Assembly (NCBI GenBank): GCA_907163375.1
Contig: CAJQUW010007310.1
Coordinates: 1-64,000 of the forward strand
Reading direction: 5' to 3'
Length of the DNA stretch: 64,000 bases
Origin: Prostheceraeus crozeri
Lineage: Eukaryota > Platyhelminthes > Polycladida > Euryleptidae
Below are positions 5,038 to 62,940 of the stretch, one piece after another. The position numbers and the translations under genes are program-made. The notes beneath the pieces were generated by a model, which was not told the origin of the DNA, made no database searches, and worked only from the letters and a program-made list of their open reading frames with translations. Position 1 is the stretch's first letter. The number at the start of each line of letters is the position of its first letter.

Positions 5038-5356
5038 GTTGTTTTGGATTAATGAATAGGGCGACTACCTTTATTTTCAAATCCACTGGCCATCACAGCT
5101 GTTTCAAAAGCCTCCGAGGTGATTCTAATTACACATTATTTGTATTTAAAGGCAAGGAAATATAGACAACGGATGCGAATCAAATGCCTGTTACAATGGC
5201 AAAAAAAACATCCAGAGCAAGATGAAGAAGAGATTGGAAAATTGCGTATATCGAAATATCAAATTAAATATCAATATTCTCATTGGAAAAGCAATTTCCA
5301 ATCAAAATTGTCAACGTTCCTTTTAAGTGCTCATAACTCCTTCATCGGTGAAGAAA

Positions 5357-12598: not shown

Positions 12599-12599
12599 G

Positions 12600-12656
12600 T
12601 TCCAATGCTTCCCTTCTAGTCAAACGGAAGAAGAGACGACCTGTCTAATTCTGTGC
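12600..12656. repeat. Displaced inverted copy of the palindrome spacer
   Basis: This segment (containing CTTCTAGTCAAACGGAAGAA and ACGACCTGTC) is the inverted complement of 12077-12132, the spacer of the adjacent palindrome. The spacer is thus present once between the arms and once, inverted, directly after the right arm. Confidence 0.8.
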
Positions 12657-14198: not shown

Positions 14199-14200
14199 TA

Positions 14201-16727: not shown

Positions 16728-16729
16728 TA

Positions 16730-16795
16730 TATGCCAAATAGTTCTTTTTCAAACTTCTTCGACATTTTTATCATTTCCGCTAAACTACACAAACA
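16730..16795. repeat. Inverted-repeat arm interrupted by the Tc1-like element
   Basis: The sequence 14175-14198 joined to 16730-16795 (TTTAAGTTTTATTC, then AAATAGTTCTTTTTCAAACT) is the inverted complement of 17565-17650. The second arm is uninterrupted and so represents the pre-insertion state of the Tc1 target. Confidence 0.7.
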
Positions 16796-33835: not shown

Positions 33836-33967
33836 GTCTGATGAATGACTAAGCCTGAGGTGTGTCGATGCTGTTTTAGAAGTGTGATAAAGAGAAAGAA
33901 GAATGCTTTTTTGTGTAGAGTTATGATGCAACATCATTCTACCAATGACGTCATGAGCGAGAAACAT

Positions 33968-36300: not shown

Positions 36301-36649
36301 ATATCTATATACAAGGTGTTTCAAAAGTAGGCTAACAGTTGATTTTGCCCTAGGAAATCTATGTTGACCGTTCTATTGGCGATTTACACCTGAATCAGTC
36401 GATGGATATCCATGATCAGTCCAACATGAGCCATAGACTTCGAAGTAATTGCTACTATCATTTAGAAGTCTATGCAGTAGCATTCCATTGGCAAAGGAAT
36501 TTTGAAATCTATCATGGACAAGATATAGCACCAATCTGACATTACGTACATGGATATGTTCAATTAATTTGATTTGAATCAAACACTGTTAGTTTGACTT
36601 GAAGTGAATTAAACAAGCTTGAAGCTTTTTTGAATTTGCTGCTTCTGTC

Positions 36650-37714
36650 ATGTCAGGTCATCTAAAAGATGATCAGAGAAAATGGATTTTGAAATCCTTT
36701 TGGAAAAACAAGAATGCTGAAAAGATGCGAATGGAATGGAGAGATGCCTTTCACAGCAATCCTCCATCAAGATTTGCTATTTATCGCATTCGAGATAAAT
36801 TTGAAAAGACCGGTTCGGTAGAGAATGCACCGAAGTCAGGACGCCCTCGATCAGTTTCAATAACATCAAACGAGGAGCTAGTGGCCCAAACATTTGTTCA
36901 AAGTCCGAAGAAGTCAACAAGAAGAGCCTCATTGGAGTTGGACATTTCTCTAAGCTCTACTTGGAGACTGATGAGGAAAGTTGAGTTGAAACCATACCGA
37001 CCCAGACTGTTGCAGCACCTTCTACCGGATGATGCTGAACGACGCTTGCAGTTTGCTGTGCTCATGTTGTCGGAAATTCGGGAGAACCCAGATTTGCTTG
37101 ACAAGATAGTTTGGTCTGACGAAGCCAGTTTCAAACTATCAGGTCACGTAAATAGACATAACTGTGTCTACTGGTTCCCTGAAAATCCGCACATGGTATC
37201 AACAAATGAGCTGAACCAGCCTGGCTTAACCGTCTGGGCCGGTATGTCAAGCAACGGTGTGATTGGGCCAGTATTTTTTGAAAGAACTGTGACGGCGGAG
37301 GTGTACCTTCAAATGCTCCAATCCTTTGCGATTCCTGAGATGCAGTCATTGAACAACTTCAATGAGCTGTACTTTCAGCAGGATGGTGCACCAGCGCATT
37401 TTGCAGTGAGTGTCAGAAGCCATCTGAATGACACTTTTCCAGGAAAGTGGATCGGGAGATGTGGTAGCATCCTTTGGCCTCCTCGCTCTCCCGATCTAAC
37501 TCCGATGGACTTTTTCTTTTGGGGCGTTGTAAAGGAGAAAGTGTACGGACGAAAACCTCACACACTTTCTCAACTCCGCTCCTACATCACAGATGCCTGT
37601 CAAGAGATCAGTGATGACAGGAACTTATGCAGAACTGTGTGCCACAGTGTGGCCGAAAGACTACAAGAATGTGCCGATGTCCATGGTGGACATTTTGAGC
37701 ATTTGCGTTCGTGA
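36650..37714 (+). CDS. Transposase, DD41D group (rosa/Visitor-like)
   Basis: 354 residues from the ATG at 36650. The N-terminal DNA-binding half includes an HTH-type region and a GRPRS AT-hook-like linker (residues about 60-70), followed by a second HTH (KKSTRRASLELDISLSSTW). The catalytic part has VWSDEASFKL (first D), YFQQDGAPAHFA (second D) and WPPRSPDLTPMDFFFWG (third D). There are 41 residues between the second and third D. The ending -PMDFFFWG with D in place of E defines the DDxD group related to mariner. No stops or shifts, so it may be functional. A 5' leader of about 340 bp separates the left repeat from the ATG. Confidence 0.93.
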   Translation: MSGHLKDDQRKWILKSFWKNKNAEKMRMEWRDAFHSNPPSRFAIYRIRDKFEKTGSVENAPKSGRPRSVSITSNEELVAQTFVQSPKKSTRRASLELDISLSSTWRLMRKVELKPYRPRLLQHLLPDDAERRLQFAVLMLSEIRENPDLLDKIVWSDEASFKLSGHVNRHNCVYWFPENPHMVSTNELNQPGLTVWAGMSSNGVIGPVFFERTVTAEVYLQMLQSFAIPEMQSLNNFNELYFQQDGAPAHFAVSVRSHLNDTFPGKWIGRCGSILWPPRSPDLTPMDFFFWGVVKEKVYGRKPHTLSQLRSYITDACQEISDDRNLCRTVCHSVAERLQECADVHGGHFEHLRS

Positions 37715-37785
37715 ATTTTTGCAACTTTAAGTTGATTAATTTTTTGATATGTTGAATAGGCCTTGGTTATTCATTTGTTCATTTT

Positions 37786-38098
37786 TTTGTTAGGAAACCA
37801 AGCAAACAAAATGGTAGTTGTTTTAATGTTAATACCTTTATTAATTTCAGCCTCCTCTAGGCCATCGTCAGAAGCTTCTGACGATGGTCTAAGAGGAGGC
37901 TGGAATTAACAAAGGTGAAGGACATTGGATGTCAGCTGTTCTTCCTTCTTCGCCTCCCTGTCTTGTGTTGACGACAGCGTCTTCGTGCACCAGGCTGAGG
38001 GGCGCGGAGGACATTCGAATGTCAGCTGTTCTTCCTTCTCCGCAGTAACACTGAAACAACTACTATCTTGTTTACATGGTTTCCTAATAATTTTTTTT
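37786..38098. repeat. Foldback segment in the 3' part of the DD41D element
   Basis: Outer arms (TTAGGAAACCAAGCAAAC against TTGTTTACATGGTTTCCTAA) enclose a strong hairpin at about 37830-37912, whose centre GTCAGAAGCTTCTGAC is self-complementary and whose arms include CAGCCTCCTCT / AGAGGAGGCTG. Two direct copies of GATGTCAGCTGTTCTTCCTTC-like sequence follow (37928 and 38018). It looks like an insertion carried by the transposon. Confidence 0.65.
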
Positions 38099-38444
38099 GA
38101 TAGATGTTGGATAGTTATTCGACTTCTCATGATCGGTATAGATTCAAATTGGGTTGTAGTGAAATATGTAGGCATGAAAACACTGGAGATCATGAGATAT
38201 TTTAATATGATTTACGCGATGTCAAAGAGTATTGAATTTTTGCCCCTTACGAATACAAGGCATATTAGCTATCTGTGGCATCGTGAAAAAGATTATTATG
38301 ACATAGCTTATTAATCTATAGCATTAAGACATAGCTTTTCAAGGCCAATTTCTACTGTTAGCCTACTTTTGAAACACCTTGTATATACACGTATGTATGT
38401 ATATAACAGTAAGGTAAAAGGATGGAGTAGGTCAAAATAAAAGT

Positions 38445-39620: not shown

Positions 39621-40485
39621 CATAGAGTAAATATATTAGGTATAGTGGTAACTCCGCATTTATTAAATCCCCAATGTGTATACACTTTCGATTTTATTAC
39701 ATGAACTCATGGGAGTTACAAGAGGCATGCACGAGGCATTGTCACCAAATGTGGAGAGATCCAAATTTCTGTAGTTTTGAGAAAATTGCAATGGAATTGA
39801 ATGATCATGACAGTAATGCAGACGGAATTATGGCATTTCACAGACTCTCGGTGTCATGACAGTCTTGAAGATTTAATGTTTGTTGAATTAGTAATTCGAT
39901 ATGTTCCTATTACTTTCATGCTGAACCTCAAGAGTATTTTCTTAAGCGTGATCATATCACAGGCAATCTGCCACATGCAGAGCAAAATCACATAATCAAA
40001 GACAATTATTTCAAATAACTTTGAAAGATGTAAATGGGTCCATATCACTATTCAGATTCAAGAAATGAAACATGAATTTAGTGACTCATAGAATCATGCC
40101 GGTGAAAATTGAATTAAAAACTTGAAATTTCAGCCAAGAAAGCACGAACGAATAAGATCGCTACTTTTTTATGAAGACTTTCATTATGATACAATTCATT
40201 AAAAATTCCCTTGATAATCAGCTTGATTTCCGCTTAGTTGGGATGCCTATTAGCAAATATTCATTCCTTTTGATATCCAACTTGTTTCATACTACTTATA
40301 TAGGCGAGTCATCTCGGTAGTATATAAATTGGTAAATTTTGACTTTTTTTGAAACTGCTCAAATAATTTTTTGGACCACGGGAGCGTAATCTCAGCAAAA
40401 AACTGAATCTTTTGACATAAAAATTTTCACTGTATACAGATATTTGTTTGAGTCGACACTCTACCTATATATCCCTACTCTTTGG
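39621..40485. mobile_element. Repeat R1, uninterrupted copy (hAT-like?)
   Basis: An 865-bp unit flanked by exact 8-bp direct repeats GTTTGACG (39613-39620, 40486-40493). Ends are CATAGAGTAAATATATTAGG and, inverted, CAAAGAGTAGGGATATATAG, an imperfect inverted pair. The 8-bp duplication suggests a hAT-like non-autonomous transposon. A second copy in the other orientation is split by the 10.4-kb CACTA-like element. This copy reads straight through the corresponding point near 40286-40292. Confidence 0.75.
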
Positions 40486-41320: not shown

Positions 41321-41692
41321 TTAGATATTGAATCCACTATTTGAAAGGTTTGACATCGTGACGATGAAAGAGTTTCTCAATAATGTGGTTGCACATAATG
41401 GGATGCGATACTTCTGGGAGTGTGGTAGAATATCTGGGATTAAGTGATGTATCGGGTGATTGATGCCACTTATAATGTTCTGAAAAAATCGGAACCCATC
41501 AATCAGTCTTCGATAATCCAGCGGCAAAAAGTCTAAACACTCACTATCTGATTCAGAGACACCGCAAATAATCCTGTGGCATCTGCTCTGCACTCTTTGG
41601 AGTCTCAGTGATTGCTCTGAATTTAGGGGCATGAGAAGTGGAGATCCGTACTCAAGTACACTACGTATACAATTATTGCATATCAGAATCAA
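41321..41692 (-). pseudogene. Non-LTR ORF2 C-terminal region
   Basis: ICNNCIRSVLEYGSPLLMPL, then LRLQRVQSRCHRIICGV and FLPLDYRRLIDGFRFFQNII match the region after the RT thumb in CR1/L2-type ORF2 (RSVLEYaspvW... LExVQrRatRii... pLexRRxxxdl). Frame ends at 41321 without the final WNxLP block. Separated from the RT frame by a short frame change near 41700. Confidence 0.75.
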
Positions 41693-41719
41693 TTGGTTTT
41701 GAGGCAGAATGGGCTTAAG

Positions 41720-42891
41720 TTAGCGAAGCACAGATAGACGAGATGACGCCTTTTTGCTAACCATTTTGGTGTGCTCTTTCCAATTAAGATTTCTATCGAA
41801 AATCATTCCGAGAATTTTCAAATGAGGGTTGAGAGAGATATCGCTTATCTTAAAGTCATCATATATGAAATTTCTATTTTTCGTAATCATAAGTTGCCGA
41901 CATTTTCTTACATTGATTTCCATGTGGTTGTGTTCAACCCATTTGAGTACATCGCTATATGCCTCAGCAATAGGGCTAACGTGGTCTATTTTTCGAATAT
42001 TTGCCACCAACGTAATATCATCGGCATATTTCACTGTCATTATGTCCGCTCTGTCAATTTTAAGATCCGAAATGAAATAGTTAAAGAGGATCGGCCCCAC
42101 GCAAGATCCCTGTGGAACGCCGCTAGCCACTCTGCCGCATGAGCTTAACATTTCTCCAGACTTGACACGAATCAATCTCGAATTCAAATAATTTTTGAAA
42201 AAATGAACAATGAAGTCATCCAAATTCTCGTTCTTCATTTTTCTCAACAAGGTGTTGTGCGGAACTTTATCAAAGCCCTTTCCCAAATCAATGGTGAGGA
42301 CATGGCTCGCAGTCACATTATCATTACCCACGTTATTTACTGTACTATGAAATTTTCGATTTCTAACAGTGCGCATATCGTTGAGCTTTTTCATCGAAAG
42401 CCGTACTGTGAGCTATCCACTAAGTGATCAAACCTGTCCTTGATGCGTTTCAAAAATAACTTTTCAAAAATACGTTCTGGAATTGGAAGGAGACAAATGG
42501 GTCTGACGTCTACCAGTTTCGGCGGCGACGTTTTGGGCAGCGGGATTACATGCGCAGTCTTCCACACCTTTGGCAAGTCCCCGATATTCAAGCATGCATT
42601 GAAGATGAAGCAAAGAGGTTCTGCTAATTCAGATGAAAACGTTATTATGGCTGGTACATTATCCGGTCCAGGTGCTTTCTTTGAGTTCAAATTTTCCAGG
42701 TAGCGATGTAATTCTTCTCGTTTGAATTGAAAAGGAGCGGGTGCATGTTTACATTCTACTTGAATGTCATCACGGACATAGTGTGATACGACACCATTCC
42801 TTACCTCTTCAAGAATATCTACCGGATCTCGATTGGGTTGGCATCGAATTAGCCAGCCACTCCCTGTGGGAACGCATCTTGCTAATATCAA
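41720..42891 (-). pseudogene. Non-LTR reverse transcriptase domain
   Basis: Two overlapping frames (42891-42391, 42394-41720) give the RT in order: NSKKAPGPDNVPA, HVIPLPKTSPPKLVDVRPIC, QYGFR, TIDLGKGFDKVPH (normally DxSKAFDxVxH), SGVPQGSCVGPILFNYFISD, and VKYADDITLVA, the catalytic YADD. The frame shift falls at about 42391-42394, just after QYGFR, and the SKAF serine and alanine are altered. The reaction would be target-primed reverse transcription of the element RNA; this copy is inactive. Confidence 0.88.
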
Positions 42892-43600
42892 CAGATTATC
42901 TGGCGAGGTAGCGATTTTGTGGATAATTTCTTTAAAGGTTCATTTTCGTGTAAAAACTATCTCCGCATGTGAAAATGGTCATCATTTATCCAAAAACATG
43001 TGTAAAATTAAAAAACGATAGGTGGCGAAAAAGTTGCTATAATTAGTTGGTAGATATTTGTTTACTAATGCGAGCTGTTTTTTCACCAACCGGCGAAATC
43101 GTGGATATTGTAGCAACTAATTAGTGGTAAGTAGTCATGTTCGTATATTACCTTCACATGAAAATATATTGTATACTCAGTCTGATCTGATAAAAAGGAA
43201 TCTTTTTTAATTCACGAAGGCTTAAACTAAAAAAAGTATTTATCTTCCATAAATGTCGCAGTAAATACTATTATATTATTCAAATATTTGTCATTGTTGT
43301 AAATTATTGAATGTCAAGAGATGTTATGAAAATTGATATAAGCGGATTCTCTATAATCTTATCATTATCAAAGAATGATAGTCTGCACTTATTTCTTAGA
43401 TAGATTAGCCAAATTTGGGGGATGGTGAGGAGGTGATGGAGAAAATAGAGCCTCGGCTGTAGAGGCGGAATACTAAAGAACAAAAGAGAGAAAGTAAAAG
43501 GTGGCATATAGAGCGCGAATTGTCGCCGGCGAACTTCGCCAGCGAATATGCCGCAAATATGACTGAACTGTAGCTGACATGCGCCAGTTTTTCGCAAGAT
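42892..43600 (-). other. Unassigned segment between ORF2 domains
   Basis: No frame continues ORF2 cleanly. A minus-strand stretch near 43597-43540 (LWERILRKTGACQ in one frame) could be linker sequence, while the rest is unrecognised. Possible insertion or strongly decayed linker. Confidence 0.35.
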
Positions 43601-44498
43601 TCGTTCCCACAGTTGGATATCCTTGATTTTACATTAATTTTCGAATGAATCTGCAATACTGATTTATTTTCCGATGTCATTTTTCGTCCCAAGCTTTGCT
43701 TTGCTTCCAAAATAGATTCCTTGACTTTATCTCGAAGATAATTATAGACAACCCAATTTTTACTTCTGTAGGCTTGGTACCGTTTATTGATCAGCACATT
43801 TATGACATTGTTCATCCACGTCGTGAATTCACAAAGTAATGATTTTGCAGACATTATATTTGAATCACGTAAATCTAGCACTTTGACGGTTTTGAAATCA
43901 AACTTCAAATTATGAGCCGGCTTGATAAACACGATTGAGTGATCACTATGCCCCAACGGAGGTAATATTTGTGGCTTTGAATAATGATCCTCAAAGCAAT
44001 CTGGAATAAGTGCCAAATCCAATGTTGCTTCATTTCGAGTGGGTTGATCTACAATATTCACCAGGGAGAAATTTGATACAAATATGTCAGGTTCAACACG
44101 ATTAAAGTCACCCAAAATAAATAGATGTGAAGACGGATACTGCCTCAATATATTGTCTATAACATCTACGGCAGATAAGCATGCATATTGCTTTTGCACT
44201 GAGTTCAATTTCCCTCCGTGTCACCACCAAAATCACCCTAAATCACCACCAAAATGCAGTCTATAAATTTATGGCAAGCTCTTATCGCAAGCATTTCGGT
44301 GTTATCATCATCACAGTGTAGTGCTAAGACAATGGTTTGAAAATCGGAGCAGATCCAACAACAGATTCCTCCACCTTTACCACTTGATCTATCAGAACGA
44401 TGAAGATTATAGTTTGGAACACTAATGGAAGAATCATCAACAGAAGAATCTAGCCAAGATTCCACAACACATACAAAGTCTGGCTTATTTGAAGACAC
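43600..44498 (-). pseudogene. Non-LTR APE-type endonuclease domain
   Basis: Frames 44498-44238 and 44208 to about 43600 carry PDFVCVVESWLDSSVDDSSI (E of the catalytic pair), YNLHRSDRSSGKGGGICCWI, HLFILGDFNRVEPDIF (GDFN box), DLALIPD and LGHSDHSIVF (SDH box). That is the apurinic-like nuclease that nicks the target in CR1/L2-group elements. A frame break lies between 44208 and 44238, where a CACCACCAAAATCACC duplication is visible. Confidence 0.82.
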
Positions 44499-44750
44499 GA
44501 ATAATTTCAGTTCATCGATTTTATTTTTGATGGATCTTGCGTTGATGCAGCATAATGAGGGTAGAGGAATTTCAGTTTCGCGTCATTGAGATCCGGCCAC
44601 TCTCTGTACAATCCTACCTCTTCGTAGAACAACATCTTAACCCGCTTGATTTCTTTGTTGATATTCATCGACTAGAATTTTGTCTTCAGCTAGCTGTTTT
44701 CGTGTGAGATCATTCTTGACATAAACTTTCCTCAAGGAACCGGATGCTGA

Positions 44751-45332
44751 TCATAATTGTCGGCTATGCCTTAGGCATGCCACTTTGTGGTCAAGCGAAG
44801 AGAATCGTATTCTTAAAGGCCGTGGTTTTGGACCTCGTTTACCAATTCTAGAGAATTGCAATACATTTCTTTCATGAATACAAGCTGTCTCACAAATCTC
44901 GCCGATCTTCCTCATGTCATTTCGTGAATTCTCTTCTTGATCTTCTGACTCTGACTCCTCAATACTGAACATGATCACATTGTTTTTCTTTTCCATTCTT
45001 TCCATTTGTTCTTGAATATTTTCGCTAACAACATTTCCTATCTCTGCAACGATTTTAGAATTCAGCTGATTTCTTAAATGAGATATTTCTTTTTCTATAG
45101 CGGAGAATCTGTCCAAAATATCTGCTACATTAATTATTTTACACGCATTATATGCATATGACATGTTATCGAAAGAGGCCAAAGATTTGCTGATGTTTGC
45201 TGGTATGCTAGAGCAATCCTTTTTGTGATTAAACACCCGACGACATATTCCGCATGAAACGCTATCTCCGTCGATATTGGCATTGCAAGTGTGACAACAA
45301 ACTGGATTCTCACTTGGTCTTCTGGACATCAT
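44751..45332 (-). pseudogene. Non-LTR ORF1: PHD-like zinc motif, coiled coil, RRM-like part
   Basis: From the ATG pair at 45332/45329 the frame reads NPVCCHTCNANIDGDSVSCG, then ICRRVFNHKKDC: a Cx2C...Cx2C...HxxxC treble-clef/PHD-like motif. A heptad-rich segment follows (DILDRFSAIEKEISHLRNQL). The last part has NNVIMFSIEESES and FSRIGKRGPKPRPLRIRFSS, an RRM-like block typical of RNA-binding ORF1 proteins of CR1/L2-group elements. The frame is open to a TGA at 44751, although the C-terminus seems short. Frame upstream of 45332 is non-ATG and overlaps the tRNA-like sequence. Confidence 0.75.
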
Positions 45333-45360
45333 GGACAACGAAAATAGAACAAAATGACAG

Positions 45361-45432
45361 TCAGGATTCGAACACACCTAGAACAGACTCGAATATCGGC
45401 CTTCGTAACACTAGACCACTGCCGGGTCATCC
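45361..45432 (-). promoter_or_regulatory. tRNA-like box A / box B (pol III type) upstream of ORF1
   Basis: On the minus strand TGGTCTAGTGTTA (45418-45406; box A consensus TRGYNNARNNG) is followed about 30 bp later by GTTCGAATCC (45373-45364; box B GWTCRANNC). The intervening sequence resembles a tRNA-Glu/Asp body, but T-stem pairing is poor, so this is not a functional tRNA. It could be a captured SINE head or part of the retrotransposon 5' UTR. Confidence 0.55.
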
Positions 45433-45720
45433 GTTAATGATGCATATACACAAATTGACCTCATACAAATTGATATTTTGAAACGTATTACGGAAAGCTT
45501 TATAACGTAATGCATGCACTTAGGCTACTAATTACAGTTTTTTCAATAAAAAAATCGTCTCCAGCGAATACCACACTAATACATAAGAATTTTGATCTAT
45601 ACAAGAATCTAAATATCGACACAAAATACAAAAATGTACTTCTTTTACGTGAGTCTACTCATTTATTGAAACTTGGACTAAGCTTTGGGGTTTTGACCCA
45701 GGTTTTTGCCCAACCTTCAT

Positions 45721-46605
45721 GAAAGCAACAATACGGAATGCTGCTTCAAACTGGACACGGAAGTGCTCTCATATCAACACAATGGTCAGGATCTTTCCAG
45801 GATATGACTCCATGCAAACAACAATCCGCACGGCATCCGCACGACAAAACATCAGCGAATGTGAAAGTGGCCTGAGAGTGAGTTCGTTGTAGCATTCTCT
45901 CCTTGCTGTGGAAGTTTCATAACACGGATTATGGCTGCGTCATTCATTCATTCAACAATCATTTATTGCGTCATCATCCTAATCCGCGAGCATTTACCTT
46001 CTCTTAGATGTAATCATCTTCTCGCTCTCGAATGCATGCACTTTTTCTTTTTACAAGCGATTTAGAAGTCTGATTAGTCAGTAGTCATTAATGCATATTC
46101 GGTGCTCGGAGATCTTCAATGCTCTTCCTGACAGATGATTGTTTTGAGGGCCATTGTCATCCTCATGTTCTCACCATGCACGAGGATGAATACGAGCTTT
46201 ACCTCCATAAAGATGGATCATTCAGTGTCTGATATTGTGCAAAGAATTTTAATGTCATGAATGAAGAATCATTTAATCGGTGATTTAAATACAACAAGAA
46301 GCTAAATTCAATCTGAAGAGGAAATTTGGAGTTTCTTGCTAATTACAGCAGGCTTTTTTTGAGAGGGTGAACAGCGGCCATCCCGCCAAAAAACCCGATC
46401 TTCTCACTAGAAATTAAAGAAAGTGTATCTCCAATTTACTTGTACTCTGCATGTGCAGGTACAGAAGTGCATCGATGGTGAGAGCCTCAAAGGGGAACAA
46501 ACATCAAAAAGACGCGATCGGGTTCAGTTGCTAGTGTTTCACTCGCTGATGACATCAAGCAGCTGCTGAAATAAATAAAGGATCCAAAAAGAGTGAATTC
46601 ATTCA
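45721..46605. repeat. Segmental repeat R2, copy 1
   Basis: This copy is near-colinear with 50787-50875 plus 62152-62940 (the second copy is split by R1 and the CACTA-like element). Shared blocks include AACAATCCGCACGGCATCC, GGAAGTTTCATAACACGGAT and TGGATCATTCAGTGTCTGAT. In this copy the frame corresponding to the 62757-62999 ORF is broken by a shift and a stop. Confidence 0.85.
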
Positions 46606-50478: not shown

Positions 50479-50786
50479 CCGGACTGTCTATACAGGGCGA
50501 TGAAAAGTAGGCATCATACATTCCGCAATCACAAGGCCATTAATCAGAGCAGTGAGGGCGGTCTCTACAACTCTGCCAGAAACATGCATGCTATCTCGTT
50601 AAACAGAAGAAGAAATGAACGTACTGACATATTAGTGAAGTAAACGATGTATGAACTGATCGACTAGCCCATTTTTTCAATGATCGGCAAGCTGAGTGAA
50701 ACGATACAATTGCCTTGTTCGAATGCACTGAATTCAACACTTTAGAAATCAAAGTTTTTTCTCCACATAGAATCGGTTCTGCGTAA

Positions 50787-50875
50787 TGAAAGGTAACAAT
50801 ACGAAATGCTGCTTCAAGCTGGACACGGAGATGTTCTCAGATGATGCTCAGGATCTTTGGAGGATATGACTCCAT
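50787..50875. repeat. Segmental repeat R2, copy 2, left part
   Basis: Matches 45723-45812 (AATGCTGCTTCAA, TCAGGATCTTT, ATATGACTCCAT). Repeat R1 begins at 50876. R2 resumes at 62152 with the same GGACATGACTCCAT, a 14-bp direct repeat of 50862-50875 with one mismatch. Confidence 0.8.
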
Positions 50876-51077
50876 CATAGAGTAGGGATATATAGGTAGA
50901 GTGTCGACTCAAAAAGTATCTGTATACAGTTAGAATTTTTGTATCAAAAGATTCAGTTTTTTGCGGAGATTACGCTCCCGTGGTCCAAAAAATTATTTGA
51001 GCACTTTTGAAAAAAGTTATAATTAGTCAATTTATATACTACCGAGATGACTGTCCTATATAAGTAGTATGAAACAA
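50876..51077. mobile_element. Repeat R1, interrupted copy, left part
   Basis: Inverted match of 40285-40485, starting CATAGAGTAGGGATATATAG. It ends at the AA that forms the target duplication of the 10.4-kb element. Confidence 0.8.
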
Positions 51078-51545
51078 CCCACCCAGAACCGAACGTTCAT
51101 AAACCGAAAACGAACTTGAGTTGAACGTTCAATCAAAGTTGCGAACGTTCAATAAGTTGCAAGAACGTTGAAGTAAAGTTCGTGTACGCGCTTCATCTAG
51201 AAACGTGCGATAAACGTAACTAAAACGTTACGATAGTGACAGTTCAGTTTAAAACTTCCAAGGAACGTCTCAATGAAAATTAAATAGCAGAAATGTTTGG
51301 TTTGCACAAGATCGTACGTAAGTGAACGGTGATCTCGCGTTCACCTACAAACGATTCTATTGTAACGTTTCCGACACGTTTGTATAGAAACTGCTGATGA
51401 ACGAATACCTCTATAAACGTTAGGATCTTGACGTTTCTGTTTCAACGTTATCGTGACGTTGGTATGCAAGCCTTGGACATGGCTGATTAGACTCGTTTCG
51501 TTCAATATGTCAAAACGTCTCACGATCATGTGACGTTGACCATAG
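51078..51545. promoter_or_regulatory. Left subterminal repeat region
   Basis: More than 15 copies of AACGTT, GAACGTTC or AACGT-like motifs in either orientation within about 470 bp. Examples are GAACGTTCAATAAG, AACGTTACGATAG, AACGTTAGGATC and GACGTTGGTATG. By analogy with plant CACTA elements these may be binding sites for an element-encoded protein. This is inference. Confidence 0.6.
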
Positions 51546-51770
51546 CGGATCAGGCTTGACAACATCATTAAAATTATCCGGATATTTTTAATGATATTGT
51601 CAAATCGGTTTTGAATTTTATGCCGTCACTCTCAGTTTGTGGGTGCGATCTTCGATGAGAATCCGTTGACATGTGTATTTATATTTAATAGCTTCATTCC
51701 AGGCAGTCATAACGATATATATATATATACATTAATAAAAATTTTCGCCATTGACCAAACATAAAGTTTT

Positions 51771-51979
51771 GAATAGAAAGATGACACGGTCAATAAACAA
51801 GATCTTATAATTGGACTGTCTTACTTCGACTGTCTCCTTATGAGTTATTAAGGATGTTACGATGTTATTAAGGAATAATAATATAACAACTCAATAACAT
51901 CGGACTCATAAAGAGACAGTCGAAGTAACAGTCCAATTATAGGATCTAATATTTTGTTGACCGTGTTATCTTTTTATTC
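51771..51979. repeat. Hairpin repeat of about 209 bp
   Basis: Arms containing GACACGGTCAATAAACAAGATCTTATAATTGGAC-like and TACTTCGACTGTCTCCTTATGAG-like sequence pair around TTATTAAGGATGTTACGATG. Possibly a small MITE inside the large transposon. Confidence 0.75.
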
Positions 51980-54315
51980 AAAAAAATATATATATGTAAT
52001 CAATGAAGTGCTCCAAACAATTCTTGTGTTCCTTGCAAGTTTGAAGAACAGCACAATGCATGCATATATTTTTATTGTGCCATGATTCACATTTGCAAGG
52101 AACATAGGAAGGAATGTTTTGAACATTTCATTGATAAAATTTCCTCTGCTCAGACACTTGTACAATAAACACTTACTGTGTGATGAATACACTGAGATAT
52201 ATGTCTATATAGAATATGTCATTTGTTGACATCGTTTCCAAGCAATCAGCTGTTTTTAAAAAATGCAATATTTTAAACAAACTTTAATTAAAAAATTGCC
52301 TGTTCAACAATCACAGTGTATTGGATATCCTGTCACCTCTCTATTTGATGTTTGCTTCATTGATGTCATGTGTGTGCCATCTTAATCTGTGGAATGTAGT
52401 TACTTTAACTTAATAATGTAATCCAATGAAAATGTAAGCATTTCAAAATGATTGTGAAGTTTTAATTCCGTGTCAATAGATCTATTGGCCCCCAGTATAG
52501 AGCCATTAGCCCATGCATGCTAGGCATGCCATCAACGGTGTATGTTTCTTGCCCACTGATGTCCATCAGTCCCAATTCTTAGAAATTTTGCCATTTCACG
52601 TCTTGGATAATGTGAATATACTTGAATATGTGAAGAATTAATTAACAAGCTTGAAGTTATAGAGAATGTTGACGATTGATAACCCCAGATGATCATATAC
52701 ATCATATACTAGCTGCATCAATGGTGTTTTTGTCATCATTGATGCTACCTTCTTTCTTCCCAGAAATAAGTAAGTAGCTGATTTAATAAAACTTATTTGG
52801 AGGTGCGCATCGTTTTGCACAAACATATGTAAGTACATGCCATGCACGCATGCGTGCTCTACTCGCACTGATGTAAAATGTAATCATAGTAAAATTTTCT
52901 TCATTTGATAGCTGCAGTCAAAGATATTTAATATTATGCTATAAAGGCATAATAACATACACGTATATTATGCTCCCTTTATGTACATTAAATATCTTTG
53001 GCTTCAGTTGCTGGTCATGCTTCAAGCCATCGATATTTTCAATGTAGACTGCTTGTAGATATGCAAAATCACACACATATCAGATGTACAAAATGAAACT
53101 AAATAAAGGAAGCAACAGTTGAGGTGAGAAATATTTTCCTACACATTCTATTCCTACGAACAATTTTGTGTTGTTGAATTTCTTACTTTACAACACTAAC
53201 AAGATAATGGTAATGGCAAAAGAGCAAACCAATTTCCGAATAGCATGTGTTTCATGTGTTACGTATAACTTCAGTGAAATACCTCATGTCTGAAATGGCT
53301 GAAATGTTGGATTTATTATTAGAGTTCATATAATCTCGATGACAGATGCTCGGCATTTGACATTTCCAATCACTACAATAGTCAAGGTCCTGTAAGTTTT
53401 GAGTATTAATTTTGTTATAATATTATTCAATTCAAATAATTTGGACACTTTCCAATACGGGAGATTTGCAATTTGAGAGGCAATTGATAGATCTCTCATC
53501 TATCGATATTTTTTAATTGCTAGTGTCGTGTTGTCGTGGAAAACTAATTTGAAATAATAATAGATTGAGAGGTTCTGAATATCATGTTATATCTAACTAG
53601 GATCCATCCGAAAGTATTATTTAATCCAAGAAACCGTCTTCATTAGCCAAGTAAAGAGCATGTGCGATATAGAGATAATAGATATCATATCTAAATTTGA
53701 AACGTTGATACAAATAAGAGGTGCTATGTTAACGCGACTCATTTTTTATAGTTAAAGACGTTCACCTGCCCCATTGCGTGTGTGGTTCTGTTAGAATTTT
53801 GCAGCTGCTATTGCGCCGGCCGATCCGGTTCATTTTTGGCCTCCCTGCCATCACTATCTTCGTTCTAAGTTCCGGTTTTAAATTTATATTGCAACTTGCA
53901 CACTGAAATGTTATAAATGATTGGTCCAGTAAGTTTCTTATCTATCAGCCAATATTTCTGAGACATTACTTTTGCAAACTTAAAACTCTTGAAATACCTG
54001 GAATCTGTAGGCCTAATCAAATGTTTATGATTTTTGTTACTAGCAACCCCCGTTCTTTTAACTGAACATCAAACATGTAGAAGTGCGATTTCTCTTATTT
54101 ACTAGGTATGACAACATATTTAGTAATGTATAATTTCCGCCGGTCAATGGTCGAAAGACCAAAAGTACCGGTTGGGCCGTTGCAGTAGCCACCAGACTAT
54201 TAAAGTTCGATTTCTAGATGTAATTTCTTAACATCCCTAACACCCTACCAGTCTTGTACGCAGGATTATAGGATTCACTCGACATAGAACTGAAGATATG
54301 ACTCGGAAGCTTTCC

Positions 54316-54317
<2 letters not shown>
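51980..54317. other. Non-coding part of the CACTA-like element
   Basis: No motif-bearing ORF. A further hairpin (52910-53013: CAGTCAAAGATATTTAAT against ATTAAATATCTTTGGCTTCAG) lies within. Confidence 0.45.

Positions 54318-54358
<41 letters not shown>
54318..54358. repeat. (TA)n microsatellite
   Basis: About 20 TA units, followed by a short ACATACATACAT run. Confidence 0.9.
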
Positions 54359-54359
<1 letters not shown>

Positions 54360-54688
54360 GGTATATACGTAAACATACATACATACATTTACAGTATCCC
54401 TGGATTCCCCAAATTAATAACTCTCGCTAAATCCTATTTGGGATGAATTAGAATTAGCGATTTGTAATCATTGTTCTTTCAAGCCACACATGTTTCCAAT
54501 GACCACTGTCATGGTCAGTTGGATCTTTCCCGTTTCATTCGAGAAAGTTCCATTTCCAAGCAGCCAAAATCTCGCATCTCTCAAGTCAGCGGATTACTTT
54601 ATTCTTCCATCCACTTCTTCAGAAGTACATAAATGTCTTTTCGAACATTGACGACTTCCTGGCAACTCACCAGTCATTTTGATACTCA

Positions 54689-54875
54689 GGGAGGTGTTTC
54701 ACCAACCTCCGTTAGTGATTGTAACAGCGCCGTTAAACGGAAGCATAACGGGGGTAAACGGATACCCATTTAAACATTATCCGTTAGAGCTCCATTTGAC
54801 TTACTAACGGTGATCTCTCTCCGTTAGTCGAAAAGCTGCCGTTAAGACGATGCTACCGTCATCATGACGTCGGAC
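54689..54875. repeat. CCGTTA-motif cluster, possible transposon end
   Basis: It starts GGGAGGTGTTTCACCAACCT (locally palindromic GGTGTTTCACC) and holds six CCGTTA/TAACGG hexamers in about 180 bp. This looks like a terminal/subterminal region of another DNA transposon whose partner end was not found. Confidence 0.45.
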
Positions 54876-56351
54876 CCTGTCACCGATGACTATTCCATCG
54901 TCATTTCTGATGCAGTGGTCGCGTCTTAAATAATTACACGATGAGTTCAGCCAATTAGATGTTGTCAATCAATGTTAGGTCTCGTTTCATTCTCTCGAAC
55001 ATGGATATGTGGAATGTCACAGTACATGACATGTACACGACAATGTAGAGTCCGACAAACAAAATCATCACATGAACAATTGTAAACAGCTGATATTGTT
55101 CAACAATTATATAAAAGTGAAATGGAGGCGCAGTGTCTAGACACAATAACCTACAATCTGCACGAGATAATAAATTAATCAATAATAACTCGCAAAAATT
55201 AATGTATACATGTATATTTAAAATTGCTTCCTGAACGGACGATTTTTGAGATGCTTTCACATGATTTCAGGAATTGTTTTATATTTGAAGATGGTTTGAG
55301 TTTGTAGACTGCAAATTTATTTAATGGCATATCTTTCCAACCGGTTGTATGGTTATGATCGCTTAACACCTGCCTAAATGACTAACTAAAAGTGTGCATT
55401 ACAAGGTCGATCAAAATCATTGTGTAGAATTGAACAATAAATGGTTGGGATCATAGTGTACCGGTACTGCACGGTTAGAATTCGACTTAATTATGTATAC
55501 AGTACAATACATTAATTGAATTTTGCTAGGTTAGATTAAGTAATATTACCTTGAATAAATCAAGTTTTTTATTTTGACTGTCAACTGACTTGAAGAATAT
55601 GTCAAAAAAGGTTAAAGTTCATATGAGCACATCTAATTATCTTCCCTAGTTATGTTGGCAATGTTCTGACAGACAAAGTCATCTTATGATGAGTGATTTA
55701 TATTGTATTAAACACGATCATCAAGAATTCAACCTGAATGAGTGCAGATTATATTCTGCTGATGCTGTGAGGCCTGTTGAAGTTAGGTTTATCTTCAGGT
55801 CATAAGCCCAGTAGACCTACATTTTGATGTTTTAATTATGCATGAGATGCTAAATTCGATCCCAAAAACGTCCGCAAGGTGGTCTTCAATATAAAAGGTT
55901 GATAGGCACGAAAAGTTCTCAGCACCCGCTGATAACACGGGCCGTATTCACAAATGTTGCTTAGCCATTAGCATAATTTCTATTCTCACACGGACGTAAA
56001 CTGTGTTTAGCGCTAAACAGCCCTAGTGAAAACGGCTTAAATGTAGGAGTTTCTCCGTACATATGGTTTATTATCGTCAGTATTTTTGAAACTCTGGTCT
56101 GATCTGACAGACGCACATTTTGGCAGTTGGCAAGCGATGTTCATCAAAGTTTCGTGTACGACTGCGCAGATTGGCACTAGCTCTCGGATTTTAACTTTTT
56201 TGTTACTTACAGGTAGGCCAGATAAACCGCCCTTTTTAGATTTTTTAGAAAAATTAAGATAGTAATATATCGTTTCTTATTTCAGGCACGCAATGTTAAT
56301 ATAGTAATATACACTTACATCACTAACTGATAACTTGAAACTATATCGCTA
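54876..56351. other. Upstream region of the transposase gene
   Basis: No supported ORF. It includes GGGCCGTATTCACAAATG (about 55938), which resembles the end of a small DNA transposon. The transposase promoter presumably lies in the last few hundred bases, but no TATA or initiator could be fixed. Confidence 0.35.
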
Positions 56352-58606
56352 ATGGATGAAGAACATATCGAAGATCTAACTGCTGGAGTTTCCCTGAACG
56401 TTACACGTGCTGACAGATGCAAACGAAGAAAAGAGTACTCGCGTGAGTGGGTTCGATCGAAGCGTAAAAGACATTCATATCGTGCCAGTGACGTTTGTGA
56501 CGAACTTTTTTCTATCAGTGACTCGGAAATCGACGAAGACCAGGCTTCCATATCTGTCCCGGATAATCTCAAACTTTCGAATATAACAGAGGCTGATGAT
56601 GATTTTGGAAATCGTATTCACGGTTTCTCCGAACTTCATGAATTCAAAGATGAAGATCTTGAGCTAATAGAGCTAATAGAAGAAAATTATGGAGTAGATT
56701 TGTTTGACCCCACTGGAGAGGCTGTGACTGACTCAGAAGAAGAAAGTGATGAAACACATGATGCAGATGACTCAGTTCAATCAGATCAGGATGTTGAATC
56801 AGATATGCAGGATGTATTTACGCTGCATTGCTCATCTAGCGTTCAAACGGCATCCGTCTCATTGTTACACGATTTGTCTGCAACTTTCATGAAATGCAAC
56901 ATGACAACAGTTATGATGGATGAAGTTTTGAAATGTCTTGATCGTCATCGTGATGTAGTAAAAACCCAACTACCCTTAAGCTATAAAACACTTTTTCTGT
57001 TAACAGATATTCACTGAAGAGTCAAATAAGAACGATTTCCGGTCATTCTTACTTCTACTTCGGGTTGCGAGAGCAAATCTTACGTCACCTTCCTTTGTTT
57101 GCAAAAACCGAATTATCTGATTTGACGGAACTTCAATTAGTTTGGAATACAGATGGATTATCTTTATTTAAAAGTAAACGCCGAATGAATGCGTGGCCGG
57201 TGTTGGCTTATATTGCAAATATCAAACCTAGAATAGTATTTGAAGTTGTGTTGAGCGTAGGATTGGGGAAGCCGAATAGCTTGCAATTCATCGAGGAATT
57301 TGTAGAGGAAATGAAAAATGTCATGGAAGAAGGTATTGATTTCGAAGGTAAAAGAATGAAAGTTACTCACAAAGCGTGTGTTTGTGATGCACCAGCCCGG
57401 GCTTTCATAAAGAATATGGTACAATTTTCAGGAAAGGCTGGTTGTGATCATTGTGAACAAGAGGGACATCACGATGGTAAACGCATGGTGTGGACAGGTT
57501 TTAACTTAGGAACACCAAGAACCAATGAAAGCTTCAGATCAAAATCACAACTTTTGCACCATAAGAAAAATTTACTAAATTCACCTCTGCTTAAGCTTGA
57601 CGTCGATATGATTACGGAATTCCCTGCTGATTTCATGCATCAGGGAGGTGGTGTGACAAAGAAATTATTGGCGTGGCTTACTGACGGACCAAAAAGAAGT
57701 GGTAATAATAGATATGCTTGTAAGATGAGTGCTACAAACATACGAATTCTGGATGAAAGGATTGCATACATCTCAAAGTTCATTCCCAACGTGTTCTCAC
57801 GAAAATTGAGACCTATAAATGAACTACCAGATTATAAGTATACGGAATTAAGACAGGTGCTGTTATATACGGGAAAGCTTTTACTATATAATATTACAGC
57901 AACACAGCTGCAGTACAATCATTTCTTGTACCTTAGTACAGCTTGCAATTTGATGGTTGATCATGATAAAGCAAAAAGTTCTTTTGAAACAACATCACGC
58001 CTCATGGAACGTGTTATCTTGGGATTCGCCGAATATTATGGAAGGTCCTTCCTCACGTATAATGCCCATGTTTTACAACATTTTCCGAGTATTGCAATGC
58101 ATCATGGAAGTCTTGATCATATATCAGCATATCCTTTTGAAAATCATCTAGGGATGATGAAAAAGTATATCAAATCATCGCATGACCCAATGATATCTCT
58201 GCTTCAAGGTGTGCGTCGTAGTCAAGTAAACCTGAAGCTCAAACAGGAAATTGGAAAACCGGCTGTTGTTATACATGCAGATCCACCGAACAATGTTTAT
58301 GTCGACCGTGTGCGTCATAAAGTGTATGAAGTTATACGTCTTGAACGCGATAGTGCATTTGTAAGGGAACATCTACGACTCGATGATTTCTTTTCGGATC
58401 CCATACCTTCGCGTGTTATTGGTTGCTATTTATCGAAAACAAGTAAATTCCGTTACACACAATGTCAGAGGTCAGAGCTATTGAATTTCAGGCAAGGAAT
58501 GAAAATTGAAATGGATGGATTTCCGGGTATGCTGGATCCACGTTTGATCAGAGATCGTGCGTTGATAATTTCGTTGCTCCATAATCTTGATGAATCATTG
58601 TTCTGA
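56352..58606 (+). CDS. CACTA/EnSpm (Tnp2-like) transposase, apparent frameshift
   Basis: About 750 residues in two frames: 56352-57017, then about 57017-58606, open without a start codon. The N-terminus is basic (CKRRKEYSREWVRSKRKRHS), followed by a very acidic stretch. After SYKTLF the frame changes near 57000-57025, and the second frame continues ISGHSYFYFGLREQILRHLP. The catalytic region has VWNTDGLSLFKSK...WPVL (first D), CVCDAPARAFIKNM (second D) with a zinc-like CDHCEQEGHH, and EFPADFMHQGGGVTKKLLAW. Then TELRQVLLYTGKLLLYN and YNAHVLQHFPSIAMHHGSLD / AYPFENHLGMMKKY follow. These blocks are characteristic of animal EnSpm-type transposases. One indel separates it from a full ORF. A tiny intron is less likely. 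Confidence 0.85.
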
Positions 58607-58752
58607 CCTTAGCGCATTGAAGTATAATCAGTTAAATGATGTAGGTGTATGTTATAACAAAATTGCTGAAATCATGCAGTAAGTGATTCAGACATGCGTG
58701 ATGCATTTCTATATGAATAATGAAACAATTTCTTTTTGATTTTATAGAAGAT

Positions 58753-60469
58753 ATGATTGACAGTGACATGGAAGATAATGTTGGAACCACCGCATCAAGC
58801 AAACGGAAGTCTGAACGAAGGCGTAAACTTCCACCTCCAATTGTGGTAAGTAAGTCCTGCCTGCTACTTCACATCGGATCAAGTTCAGGAAACCAACTTA
58901 GTTATGTATGTCGGGCAACATTTTACATTTTTAACACATTTGATTTTCTCCTGGAATATTAGGAATTTTGAGAAATGAAAGCCAATTTAGGAAACTACAG
59001 CGAATGGCCTTTCCTGTTGATATACTGAAGTTTTGTGCATCATTTCTGTTTTTTATTTATCTTATTTGCAGGGAAATACCTTACTGAAAAGAGGTTGTGT
59101 TGTGACTTAATTATAAGGTTACAACAGGCTACGTTTGCTTCAAACTAGGGATCAATACGATTTTTGAGTTACGATTCTAAAAAGCTTGACCTAAGTTACT
59201 GGTACATGTTTTAAACTAAATGAAATTTGCTTTTTAGGATGAGTGGGTTCTGTTCAATTTCAATGATAACTCTCTGTTGAATGTTCCCAAATCATGGATT
59301 ACGACTAGAGACAAAAATGGAAATAGAAGTGATTGCCATTATTGCTGGTGGCCTAATGTTCAAGATGATGCTAAGAATCTCATTCGCAGTCGATCGGATC
59401 CCGATAGAAAACAATGGAAACGAATAAAGGGGAAGAAATTGGGTACATTCAATTCATTAGAAGCCGCTGAGCGAAAGTTGAAAAGACGAGACGGACTGTT
59501 CCTACGGGAGATGAGGAAAATTCCTGTAGTACTCCACAATCGCAATCCGTGAATGACGCTGGAAGAGTCTCGACTTGGTTTGAAGGCTTTTCTACACCTA
59601 CAAGTAAGTGAATACCAATGAATTTGTGTTAAGCAATTTGATGCACAAATTATAAACTAGGCCTACATCACTCAGTATCAGCACTTCGCAAGAATTTGAC
59701 AAGATATTAACTAGTTTTGAGTAAATGTTAATCAATAAAAGGCTAGTCATACCTCATTGTCTTCACGTTCAAGTGCCATATCCCCGCGATCTAAGTACTC
59801 GTGTACTGTAAGTACAAGATGCCCATAATTAACTACAGATTTTGGTGGGAGAGACCATGTTTTTATTAAATGTTTGAAGTCATTTCAGCTATATCTACAT
59901 ACATTAACCTCGTCAGTCGCCAGTCATGCTGCCATTTCCTTTAATTTTTTACTGAGATTGATGAGACAAATCGATCGTCGTTTTTCATTTTACTTGTCTG
60001 TCGATTTTCAGTTCCATTAGAAATATATTGTAAAAAAATATTTGAAATTCATCTAATAACGGCAGTGGATATTTGCATGAACCGGTGTATCTGTGTTTCA
60101 GGTCCCAAAGTCAGCCGAACAGTCACCCCAAGCAGTAGTCAACCTATTGATCAGCATGTCATTGAAAGTCCATCTAATGATCAGCAAATTCAACATGTCC
60201 TGCAGCAGCTTGAAAGTCAAAACAGGAAGATAGAGCTTGTACTATCAAGGATCAATGAAGTGCAGGAGAAGCAAAACGTCATTTTAGGCAAAATCGGTCA
60301 TATCCAACCGATTGAAGATACGTCCCTATGTTCGACAGGTGATGCTCGATCACCGATGACAACAACTGTACGAATGATGTCAAGCTCGAAGAAAGAAGTC
60401 CGTGCTGCCGTCAGTGCCACTAGATGTCTGCTCGATCTTGGGTTTCCAGTGTCATCATCCACAGACGAA
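58753..60469 (+). CDS. Accessory protein gene of the CACTA-like element (DUF4806-like), spliced
   Basis: It starts 146 bp after the transposase stop. Exon 1 is 58753-58845 (31 codons, acidic then KRKSERRRK; donor GTAAGT). Exon 2 is 59238-59603 (acceptor TTTTTAG, donor GTAAGT). Exon 3 is 60102-60469 (acceptor TTTCAG, donor GTAAGT). Phases are compatible (0, then 1). Exon 2 encodes DEWVLFNFNDN...VPKSWI...CHYCWWPNV and KKLGTFNSLEAAERKL, the W/SWI/CxWP pattern of animal proteins usually labelled DUF4806. Exon 3 carries a coiled coil (IQHVLQQLESQNRKIELVLS). The exon 2 frame meets a TGA at 59550 unless one base is lost or gained near 59520. The downstream exon is unknown. It may bind the subterminal repeats, by analogy with TnpA. 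Confidence 0.6.
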
Positions 60470-61254
60470 GTAAGTTGTGGTAGCGAAATTAAGAAGAAAA
60501 TTGTTCTATGCCAATAAGTCGTTGATGCTAGCATCAACACTAGCATTATTTTTTCAAAATAATTTGCCCACATCTGGCCAATTAATTTTATTGGAAAGTG
60601 CATTTCTGTGTTGAAGTGGCATTACATCAAGTGATGATACAGATTTAGTGAATAGTGATGAAACAAACTCATAGTGCACTTGTGTGACATTGCAGAAAGA
60701 GTGACTTAGACGTGCAATTACGCATGCCGATTTTGTATTATCTTGTGTTATATACTGCAATAGTGTTGACAGATGATATTCCTTGCCATTTTTCATGCAA
60801 CTCATCTATGTAATTATGTGCGATTTTATATTTGCCTTGTGAATAATCCTTGCCAATTAATTTTATTGGAAAGTGCATTTCTGTGTTGAAGTGGCATTAC
60901 ATCAAGTGAATTTCTGGTACTCAGTTTTATTTGATATTTTTCTTCTTGATAATGTGTTTACTATTTGTAATCCAAGAGTATGTATGCATGTACGAATTTG
61001 TGTTATATTCTAGTCATTAAATCCATAAAAATGCATAATCGTTTTTACCCTTATAGACGAGTAGATAATTAGCTGCTATGTTCATGCAAACACATAAGTG
61101 AATGTGACTCTTAGATTCAGTCATTAGCGTGCAGCTTCCAGATGAGCACATTAGGTGATGTGTATTGCGTTTCATTATCATAGCTCGATGTTTAAGGAAG
61201 GAATGAAGAACTTCCCAATTTAGCCTTATTGAAAATTATGTAAATGCTTTCGCA
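60470..61254. other. 3' region of the CACTA-like element
   Basis: A 60-bp stretch is directly duplicated (60576-60634 and 60851-60909, CCAATTAATTTTATTGGAAA). An acceptor-like CCTTATAG near 61056 could start a short last exon of the accessory gene. No other ORF. Confidence 0.4.
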
Positions 61255-61509
61255 ACGTTAATTTCTGATGGTTAAATCAACTATCATCGTCGACAAACGA
61301 TCGTTTATATGTACACTAAGTACAAACGTTGCGTAGAAGTTAGCCCCCTGACGTTGAAACTACGGTAGTCGCGGAAGGTTTAAGAAACGTAGCGCTTCCG
61401 CCCTAACTTGTCGACAAATGAACGTTCGGATTCGGTTTGTCCTAGGCTCTTGAACGTTCAAGACCGAACAATATCCTTCCGTTCTCAAAACGTTCGTGTT
61501 CTGGGTGGG
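61255..61509. promoter_or_regulatory. Right subterminal repeat region
   Basis: At least eight AACGTT-type motifs (CGCAACGTTAATT, CAAACGTTGCG, GACGTTGAAAC, GAACGTTCGG, TTGAACGTTCAAG, AAAACGTTCG) lead to the GTTCTGGGTGGG terminus. They mirror the left subterminal region. Confidence 0.6.
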
Positions 61510-62151
61510 AAGTTGGATATCAAAAGGAATGAATATTTGCTAATAAGCATCCTAACTAAGCGGAAATCAAGCTGATTATCAAGGGAATTTTTAATGAATT
61601 GTATCATAATGAAAATCTTCATGAAAAAGTAGCGATCATATTCGTTCGTGCTTTCTTGGCTGAAATTTCAAGTTTTTCATTCAATTTTCACCGACATGAT
61701 TTTATGATTCACTAAATTCATGTTTCATTTCTTGAATCTGAATAGTGATATGGACCCATTTACATCTTTCAAAGTTAAATGAAATCATTGTCTTTAATTA
61801 TGTGATTTTGCTCTACCAGTTGCAGGTTGCCTGTGATATGATCACGCTTAATAAAACACTCTTGAGCATGAAAGTAATAGGAGCTCATCGAATTGCTAAT
61901 TTTGCAAGCACTACACCTCCAAGGCAGTCATGAGAATCTGTGAAATACCATCATTCTTTCTGCATTACAATCATGATCACTCAATTCCGTTGTAATTTCT
62001 GCAAAACTGAAAAAATTTGCATATCTCACATTTGGTGACAATACCACCTGTATCTCCCTTGAGTTCATTTAATAAAATTGAAAATGTATACACATTGGGG
62101 ATTTAATAAATGCAGAGTTGCTTACCATTCTACCTAATATATTTACTCTAT
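61510..62151. mobile_element. Repeat R1, interrupted copy, right part
   Basis: Inverted match of 39621-40290 (AGTTGGATATCAAAAGGAAT, GTGCTTTCTTGGCTGAAATT, CACATTGGGGATTTAATAAA). It ends with an inverted CATAGAGTA. The small frame at 61745-61933 is not conserved as protein. Confidence 0.8.
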
Positions 62152-62940
62152 GGACATGACTCCATTTAAACAACAATCCGCACGGCATCCACACGACAAA
62201 ACATCAGCGAATGTGAAAGCGGCATGAGTGTGAGCTCAAAGCAGCAGCTTCTCCTTGCTGTGGAAGTTTCATAACACGGATTATGGCTGCGTCAATCATA
62301 CATTCAGCAGTCATTTATTGCGTCATTATCTTAATCCGCGAGCATTTACCTTCTCTTAGATGCAATCATCTTCTCGCTCTCGAATGCACGCACTTTTTCT
62401 TTTTACAAGCGATTTAGAAGTCTGATTGGTCAGTAGTCATTGATGCATATTCGGTGCTCGGAGATCTTCAATGCTCTTCCTGACAGATGATTGTTTTGAG
62501 GGCCATTGTCATTCTCATGTGCTCACCATGCAAGAGGATGAATACCAGCTTTACCTCCATAAAGATGGATCATTCAGTGTCTGATATTGTGCAAAGAATT
62601 TTAATGTCATGAATGAAGAATCGGTGATTTAAATACAACAAGAAGCTACTTGTACATATGTAATTCCATTTCGTTGCTGTATATTGTCGTTTTTGAAAGG
62701 GTGAACAGCGGCCATCCCGCCACAAAACCCGATCTTCTCTCTAGAAATAACTGAAGATGCTAGTTATGCATCTTTACATTACTCGCACTCTGCATGTACA
62801 GGTGCAGAATTGCGTCAATGTTGAGAGCCTCAAGGGAGCACTGGGCATAAAAGAGACGCGATCGGGTTCAGTTGTTGGTGCTTCACTCGCTGTCATCAAG
62901 CAGTTGCTGAAAGAAATAAAGAATCCAAAGATGGTGCACG
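62152..62940. repeat. Segmental repeat R2, copy 2, right part
   Basis: Colinear with 45800-46605, with small indels and substitutions. It contains the 80-codon frame described at 62757-62999. Confidence 0.8.

Follow-up and report, generated by a model that had tools for sequence, protein, structure and literature searches.

Animal transposons related to CACTA (TRC elements; EnSpm in Repbase) belong to a group that DeMarco et al. (2006, PMC1636069) founded on the Pfam family Transposase_21. Their report describes elements beginning with CCC from Schistosoma mansoni, Aedes and Tribolium. Direct repeats of 2 bp flank the Aedes and Tribolium elements and seven of the 14 S. mansoni copies analysed there, and three S. 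mansoni TRC copies are shown with empty paralogous repeats. Schistosoma also carries a second spliced frame downstream of the transposase, SmTRC-PrA, which the same report proposed as an analogue of TnpA. The Hydra element Spongebob, which likewise starts with CCC (CCCAGCCAAC...) and makes a 2-bp duplication, was put in TRC in 2015 (PMC4298943). The transposases of the CACTA/Mirage/Chapaev/Transib/RAG1 clade have D, D and E residues together with two C and three H (PMC12730594).

Here, we analysed a stretch of 64,000 nucleotides from the polyclad Prostheceraeus crozeri (the window), in which a 10.4-kb insertion matches the description of animal TRC elements in its ends, target duplication, size and gene order. 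Taken whole, the evidence is best explained if the insertion is a copy of a TRC-type animal DNA transposon, of the cut-and-paste class, a reading to which we give a probability of roughly 0.9.

The TRC element of Aedes aegypti (9.2 kb) resembles the present one in its 10-bp inverted repeat beginning CCCA (CCCAGTCAAC), its 2-bp direct repeat and its TRC transposase. It differs in the end sequence past CCCA, and the description of the Aedes element considered here includes neither a second gene nor a subterminal array (PMC1636069). S. mansoni SmTRC1 shares the CCC ends, the 2-bp duplication with empty paralogous repeats and a gene order in which a second spliced frame comes after the transposase, whereas its ends are 54 bp long and it measures only ~4.5 kb; its second protein, reportedly without detectable relatives in other TRC elements, can be set beside the present one by description (PMC1636069). 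Hydra Spongebob_HMa (EnSpm-4N1_HM), a TRC element according to its authors, has the ends CCCAGCCAACATTGAC and a 2-bp duplication, but is 5.8 kb long, and its exact transposase is unreadable owing to stops or frameshifts (PMC4298943). Maize En/Spm also encodes two proteins, a transposase and a smaller spliced one. Plant ends, however, read CACTA...TAGTG and the plant duplication is 3 bp (PMC1636069, PMC4158355), in contrast to CCCAC...GTGGG and 2 bp here.

Limits of the element and its target site

The 12-bp terminal inverted repeat CCCACCCAGAAC has two perfect matches in the window, which are the two ends of the element (Table 1), and each of the other four of its six matches carries two mismatches. 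After a one-base gap, the inverted repeat continues for eight further matching bases. The ends alone are weak evidence, because perfect inverted 12-mer pairs are abundant in this repeat-rich window: at least 2142 lie 2-20 kb apart and at least 675 of them pass a complexity filter, counts that include many consecutive 12-mers from longer repeats. The element's own 12-mer, with six different dinucleotides, does not pass this filter.

The flanks of the element are the two halves of one repeat, with 202 bases on the left (50876-51077) and 643 on the right (61510-62152). An unbroken copy of this host repeat in the same window constitutes a paralogous empty site, and it aligns with the joined flanks without a gap at the insertion point (Table 1). 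On the minus strand, the empty site reads TATGAAACAAGTTGG (longer reading, TATGAAACAAGTTGGATATC). In the filled site, TATGAAACAA precedes the element and AAGTTGG follows it (longer right flank, AAGTTGGATATC). The dinucleotide AA at the insertion point is thus present once in the empty copy and twice in the filled site. The empty paralogous site therefore proves the exact ends: the insertion comprises 51078-61509, 10,432 bp, with AA duplicated. A CAC-ended reading, with the outer CC excluded, was ruled out: the empty site lacks CC/GG, so these outer bases came with the insertion. What lies here is a one-unit insertion with exact CCC ends and a 2-bp AA duplication, in a repeat that interrupts another repeat. 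The sequence-only reading had placed an element with 12-bp inverted ends and non-CACTA termini at these positions; the exact matches and the empty site agree with it on both points, and no ends at other coordinates emerged from the comparison.

Table 1. Positions in the window of the features of the element and of its empty site
Feature	Position	Strand	Basis
Host repeat, unbroken copy, single AA at 40282-40283	39621-40484	-	759/868 columns identical to joined flanks
Target duplication AA, left copy	51076-51077	.	Empty-site comparison
Left 12-bp terminal inverted repeat CCCACCCAGAAC	51078-51089	+	Pattern match; boundary from empty site
Left subterminal array, GAACGTTC-like (<=1 mismatch) at 51091, 51123, 51143, 51163	51091-51170	.	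Motif search
Imperfect palindrome, 217 bp, inside element	51767-51983	.	Repeat and self-comparison
Transposase N-terminal frame, 221 aa	56352-57014	+	Open reading frame
Transposase catalytic frame, 539 aa	56987-58603	+	Open frame, ordered residues, weak DUF4218
Second gene exon 1, 31 aa, basic cluster KRKSERRRK, donor GTG/GTAAGT; start codon guessed	58753-58845	+	
Second gene exon 2, containing the DEWVLF...VPKSW...CWWP region; change of frame within 59471-59549	59238-59603	+	
Second gene exon 3, including QIQHVLQQLESQNRKIELVLSRINEVQEKQ (by eye, coiled-coil-like); donor GAA/GTAAGT	60102-60469	+	
Right subterminal array, GAACGTTC-like (<=1 mismatch) at 61420, 61452, 61488	61420-61495	.	Motif search
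Right 12-bp terminal inverted repeat	61498-61509	-	Pattern match; boundary from empty site
Target duplication AA, right copy	61510-61511	.	Empty-site comparison

The same comparison bears on whether the insertion is a composite, in which a large non-autonomous or unrelated element supplied the ends and the transposase gene is a nested relic. The ~5.3 kb that separate the left end from the start of the transposase would fit such an origin, as no gene was recognised there (the longest frame from stop to stop has 103 aa) and the imperfect palindrome lies in this part, and so would the interrupted gene frames described below. Everything between the CCC ends is, however, insertion according to the empty site. 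The end type is also that expected for this type of transposase, and the window holds no second CCCACCCAGAAC end pair. We therefore consider a composite very improbable and treat the insertion as a single element. The 217-bp palindrome within it is probably a nested miniature element.

The host repeat itself interrupts a second repeat (50786-50875 and 62152-62929), and this one too has an unbroken copy, in direct orientation, at 45719-46588. Most simply, the second repeat was in place first, followed by the host repeat and then by the 10.4-kb element. The nesting has three levels, and each host layer is accompanied by an unbroken copy in the same window (45719-46588 and the empty copy of Table 1). 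The filled host repeat has the ends CATAGAGTA...TACTCTATG. By eye, the second repeat contributes ~14 bases on either side of it, GGA[T/C]ATGACTCCAT, and ~8 around the other copy, CGTCAAAC.

The window also contains a Tc1-type element at 14195-16733, in which a 353-aa frame is open and the inverted repeats, ~384 bases long, are 94% identical, and a Tc1/mariner-like element at 36306-38387. The latter has an open 363-aa frame (DUF4817 helix-turn-helix and DDE_3) between 59-bp inverted repeats (36306-36364 and 38329-38387, 88% identical). A palindrome of ~1 kb at 11604-12601, which matches its reverse complement at 91.5% identity, is a foldback-like element. Two receptor-like frames were found as well: an ionotropic glutamate receptor-like gene on the minus strand (31190-33967; one open frame, 925 aa) and a rhodopsin-type seven-transmembrane receptor frame on the plus strand (5327-6280; 317 aa). 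Genes of these kinds, like the transposons present, suit an animal source for the window.

A probable divergent TRC-type transposase

The catalytic residues occur in the order NTDGL, CDAPA, CDHC, DFMH, HVLQH and PFENH, with codons at 57152 (D), 57386 (D), 57443 (CxxC), 57638 (H of DFMH), 58067 (HxxxH) and 58139 (E). The two D residues are separated by 77 residues, and the second D and the E by 250. This is the CMCT-clade order D, D, C(2)C, H, H(3-4)H, E, which goes with a target duplication of 2-5 bp, here 2 bp. Among the 44 open reading frames of at least 100 aa in the window, one fits the ordered pattern; none of 20,000 protein shuffles did so, a figure that overstates the support because the pattern was composed post hoc, after inspection of the protein itself.

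DUF4218 is a companion domain of plant CACTA transposases. The Pfam model of this domain matched the HxxxH...E stretch weakly (E 0.004-0.008, under the curated cut-off). For Transposase_21, hmmscan returned no match in the transposase at E up to 1 or up to 10, in searches whose HMMER filters can drop weak matches. The spacing between the two D residues compares with 80 residues reported for TRC, and CxxC is present. Relative to the motifs given by DeMarco et al. (PMC1636069), TRC motif I, DG...F(8)WPV, is present with one hydrophobic position altered. Box A, [LVI]-D-x-[LM]-H-x3-L-G, appears in the eumetazoan sequences of that report as an observed motif and not as a stated criterion. In its strict form it fails in the present transposase, where the core DFMH is kept and the flanking L and L-G are absent. 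The weak DUF4218 match, the undetected Transposase_21, the single change in motif I and the unfitting box A together point to a transposase that appears to be a divergent member of the group.

A rival placement is in a different branch of this clade (Mirage, Chapaev, ESTA, Lanisha or one as yet unnamed), with CCC ends and a 2-bp duplication shared by coincidence. The missing report of Transposase_21 and the failure of strict box A are compatible with this, and the catalytic and zinc residues as well as duplications of 2-5 bp are common to the whole clade (PMC12730594). On the other hand, CCC ends combined with 2 bp are the feature pair described for animal TRC elements (PMC1636069, PMC4298943), and the WP motif agrees with TRC, as does the D-D spacing. 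Termini in the clade begin with CA in most, but not all, cases (CA..TG; PMC12730594), in contrast to CC..GG here. Another branch is accordingly improbable, and we retain the TRC assignment.

Searches beyond these motifs returned little. The structure predicted for the catalytic frame alone had a mean pLDDT of 33, too low to be of use, and a search of solved structures gave no credible match (best E 0.44). In viral and prokaryotic collections, transposase patterns gave 3 matches among viral contigs and 20 among genome contigs, none of which was confirmed. A degenerate pattern built on CDAPA(R/K)AF occurred in 3 and 78 stretches of these collections, respectively; when all 81 were searched by tblastn with the catalytic frame, the best E was 0.70, and so we took all of them as chance. 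PHROGs and NCBIfam yielded no match for the three proteins searched. Weak Pfam matches of the element's proteins to DUF5886, HR1, Arm_2, NUMOD1, COG4_N, PLCB1-4-like_EFh and GIIM fell under the curated cut-offs and were set aside.

A second spliced gene and subterminal sites

Downstream of the transposase and on the same strand lies a second, spliced gene, for which three exons were recognised (Table 1). The donors of exons 1, 2 and 3 (GTAAGTAA, GTAAGTGA and GTAAGTTG) are of the GTAAGT type, and the two acceptors are pyrimidine-rich. The features of its protein, namely the basic cluster, the DEWVLF...VPKSW...CWWP region and the coiled-coil-like stretch, were all read by eye, and no Pfam family scored above cut-off. 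Past exon 3, no last exon was recognised by eye in the three forward frames up to the right end. DUF4806 presumably occurs in animal proteins whose N-terminal motif resembles that of the second protein; a last exon of this type was not seen by eye in the three downstream forward frames, nor was there a Pfam match in the two pieces scanned. Inside the element, past exon 3, 61 bp are directly duplicated (60574-60634 and 60849-60909; 98% identical, 275 bases apart).

Both ends of the element are rich in short motifs. The first 500 and last 300 bases (lengths picked by eye) together contain 13 copies of AACGTT, whereas 2000 dinucleotide shuffles averaged 1.26 and never exceeded 7; another 16 copies lie outside these stretches in the window, and on the left side the motif continues to 51449. 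The palindrome GAACGTTC has five exact matches in the window, all of them inside the two end stretches. When one mismatch was allowed, 23 matches were obtained, of which seven form the end arrays, three are in the element interior and 13 lie outside. Counted from the left end, the sites of the left array stand at 13, 45, 65 and 85 bases, and counted from the right end, those of the right array stand at 82, 50 and 14, so that these candidate binding sites stand at nearly mirrored distances. A tandem repeat of period 20 spans 51123-51180 within the left end region. Maize En/Spm has many short subterminal binding sites, to which the present arrays can be likened. Dense subterminal motifs at both ends and a spliced same-strand accessory gene, each proposed earlier for this locus, are thus borne out, with the qualification that the frame of the second gene, as assembled, is broken once.

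State of this copy

As assembled, each gene shifts frame once without a clear intron, and neither forms one continuous frame. In the transposase, the change falls within 56987-57017, where two long open frames overlap by 31 bases. With both reading frames interrupted and the last exon of the second gene not found, this copy may be dead or unable to move by itself.

The frame changes might instead be introns or assembly errors, with the element still autonomous; this alternative concerns only whether the copy is dead, and we regard it as possible but the less favoured of the two. Many GT-AG pairs would join the broken frames (intron lengths of 30-400 bases were allowed for the transposase, and of 30-250 for exon 2), and the transposase change lies where two long frames overlap. 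Split frames also occur in other transposons of the window, perhaps through decay or assembly error (mariner, 8503-9629; non-LTR, 41321-45377). However, none of the candidate donors bridging either change is a GTAAGT donor like those of the second gene's three clear introns, and the failure to find this gene's last exon downstream also speaks against autonomy. Long frames elsewhere in the window are unbroken, including that of the glutamate receptor (925 aa) and those of three Tc1-type transposases (345, 353 and 363 aa). As the window holds both unbroken and split long frames, assembly quality is unsettled. A worn copy is more likely than an active one, although this falls short of proof.

Classification and possible mechanism

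The inverted ends begin with CCC and the target duplication is 2 bp, AA by the empty paralogous site, as in TRC. We class the element as an ordinary new member of the known animal TRC group, although Transposase_21 was not detected; it leaves the known picture of the group unchanged. The sequence-only reading holds in so far as it saw a CACTA/EnSpm-like element whose linked ends enclose a transposase and a second, spliced gene. Its suggestion of a possible new animal lineage with its own architecture does not: the non-CACTA ends are not new, because CCC ends with a 2-bp duplication have been known for animal TRC elements since 2006, as has the second spliced frame of Schistosoma (PMC1636069), and Hydra Spongebob followed in 2015 (PMC4298943). 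A narrower version, in which the element represents a distinct animal TRC sub-branch whose own second protein and palindromic GAACGTTC array at mirrored distances are a separately evolved counterpart of the maize TnpA/subterminal-site system, is in our view doubtful.

By analogy with its clade, the DDE enzyme encoded by 56352-58603 would cut at CCC...GGG and stagger the target by 2 bp. It would adopt an RNase-H-like fold, with a CxxC...HxxxH zinc site ahead of the last E. The second protein, with its basic cluster and coiled-coil-like stretch, may bind the palindromic GAACGTTC sites as a dimer, and might pair the element ends as TnpA does for maize En/Spm. A TnpA-like role for an animal second protein was proposed by DeMarco et al. 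(2006, PMC1636069), who left it to experiment. The locus presents a cleanly delimited animal relative of CACTA, with exact ends, a target duplication and an empty site in one window, together with a candidate binding-site array. It offers a starting point for finding other copies and for asking whether the second protein of an animal CACTA relative acts like plant TnpA.
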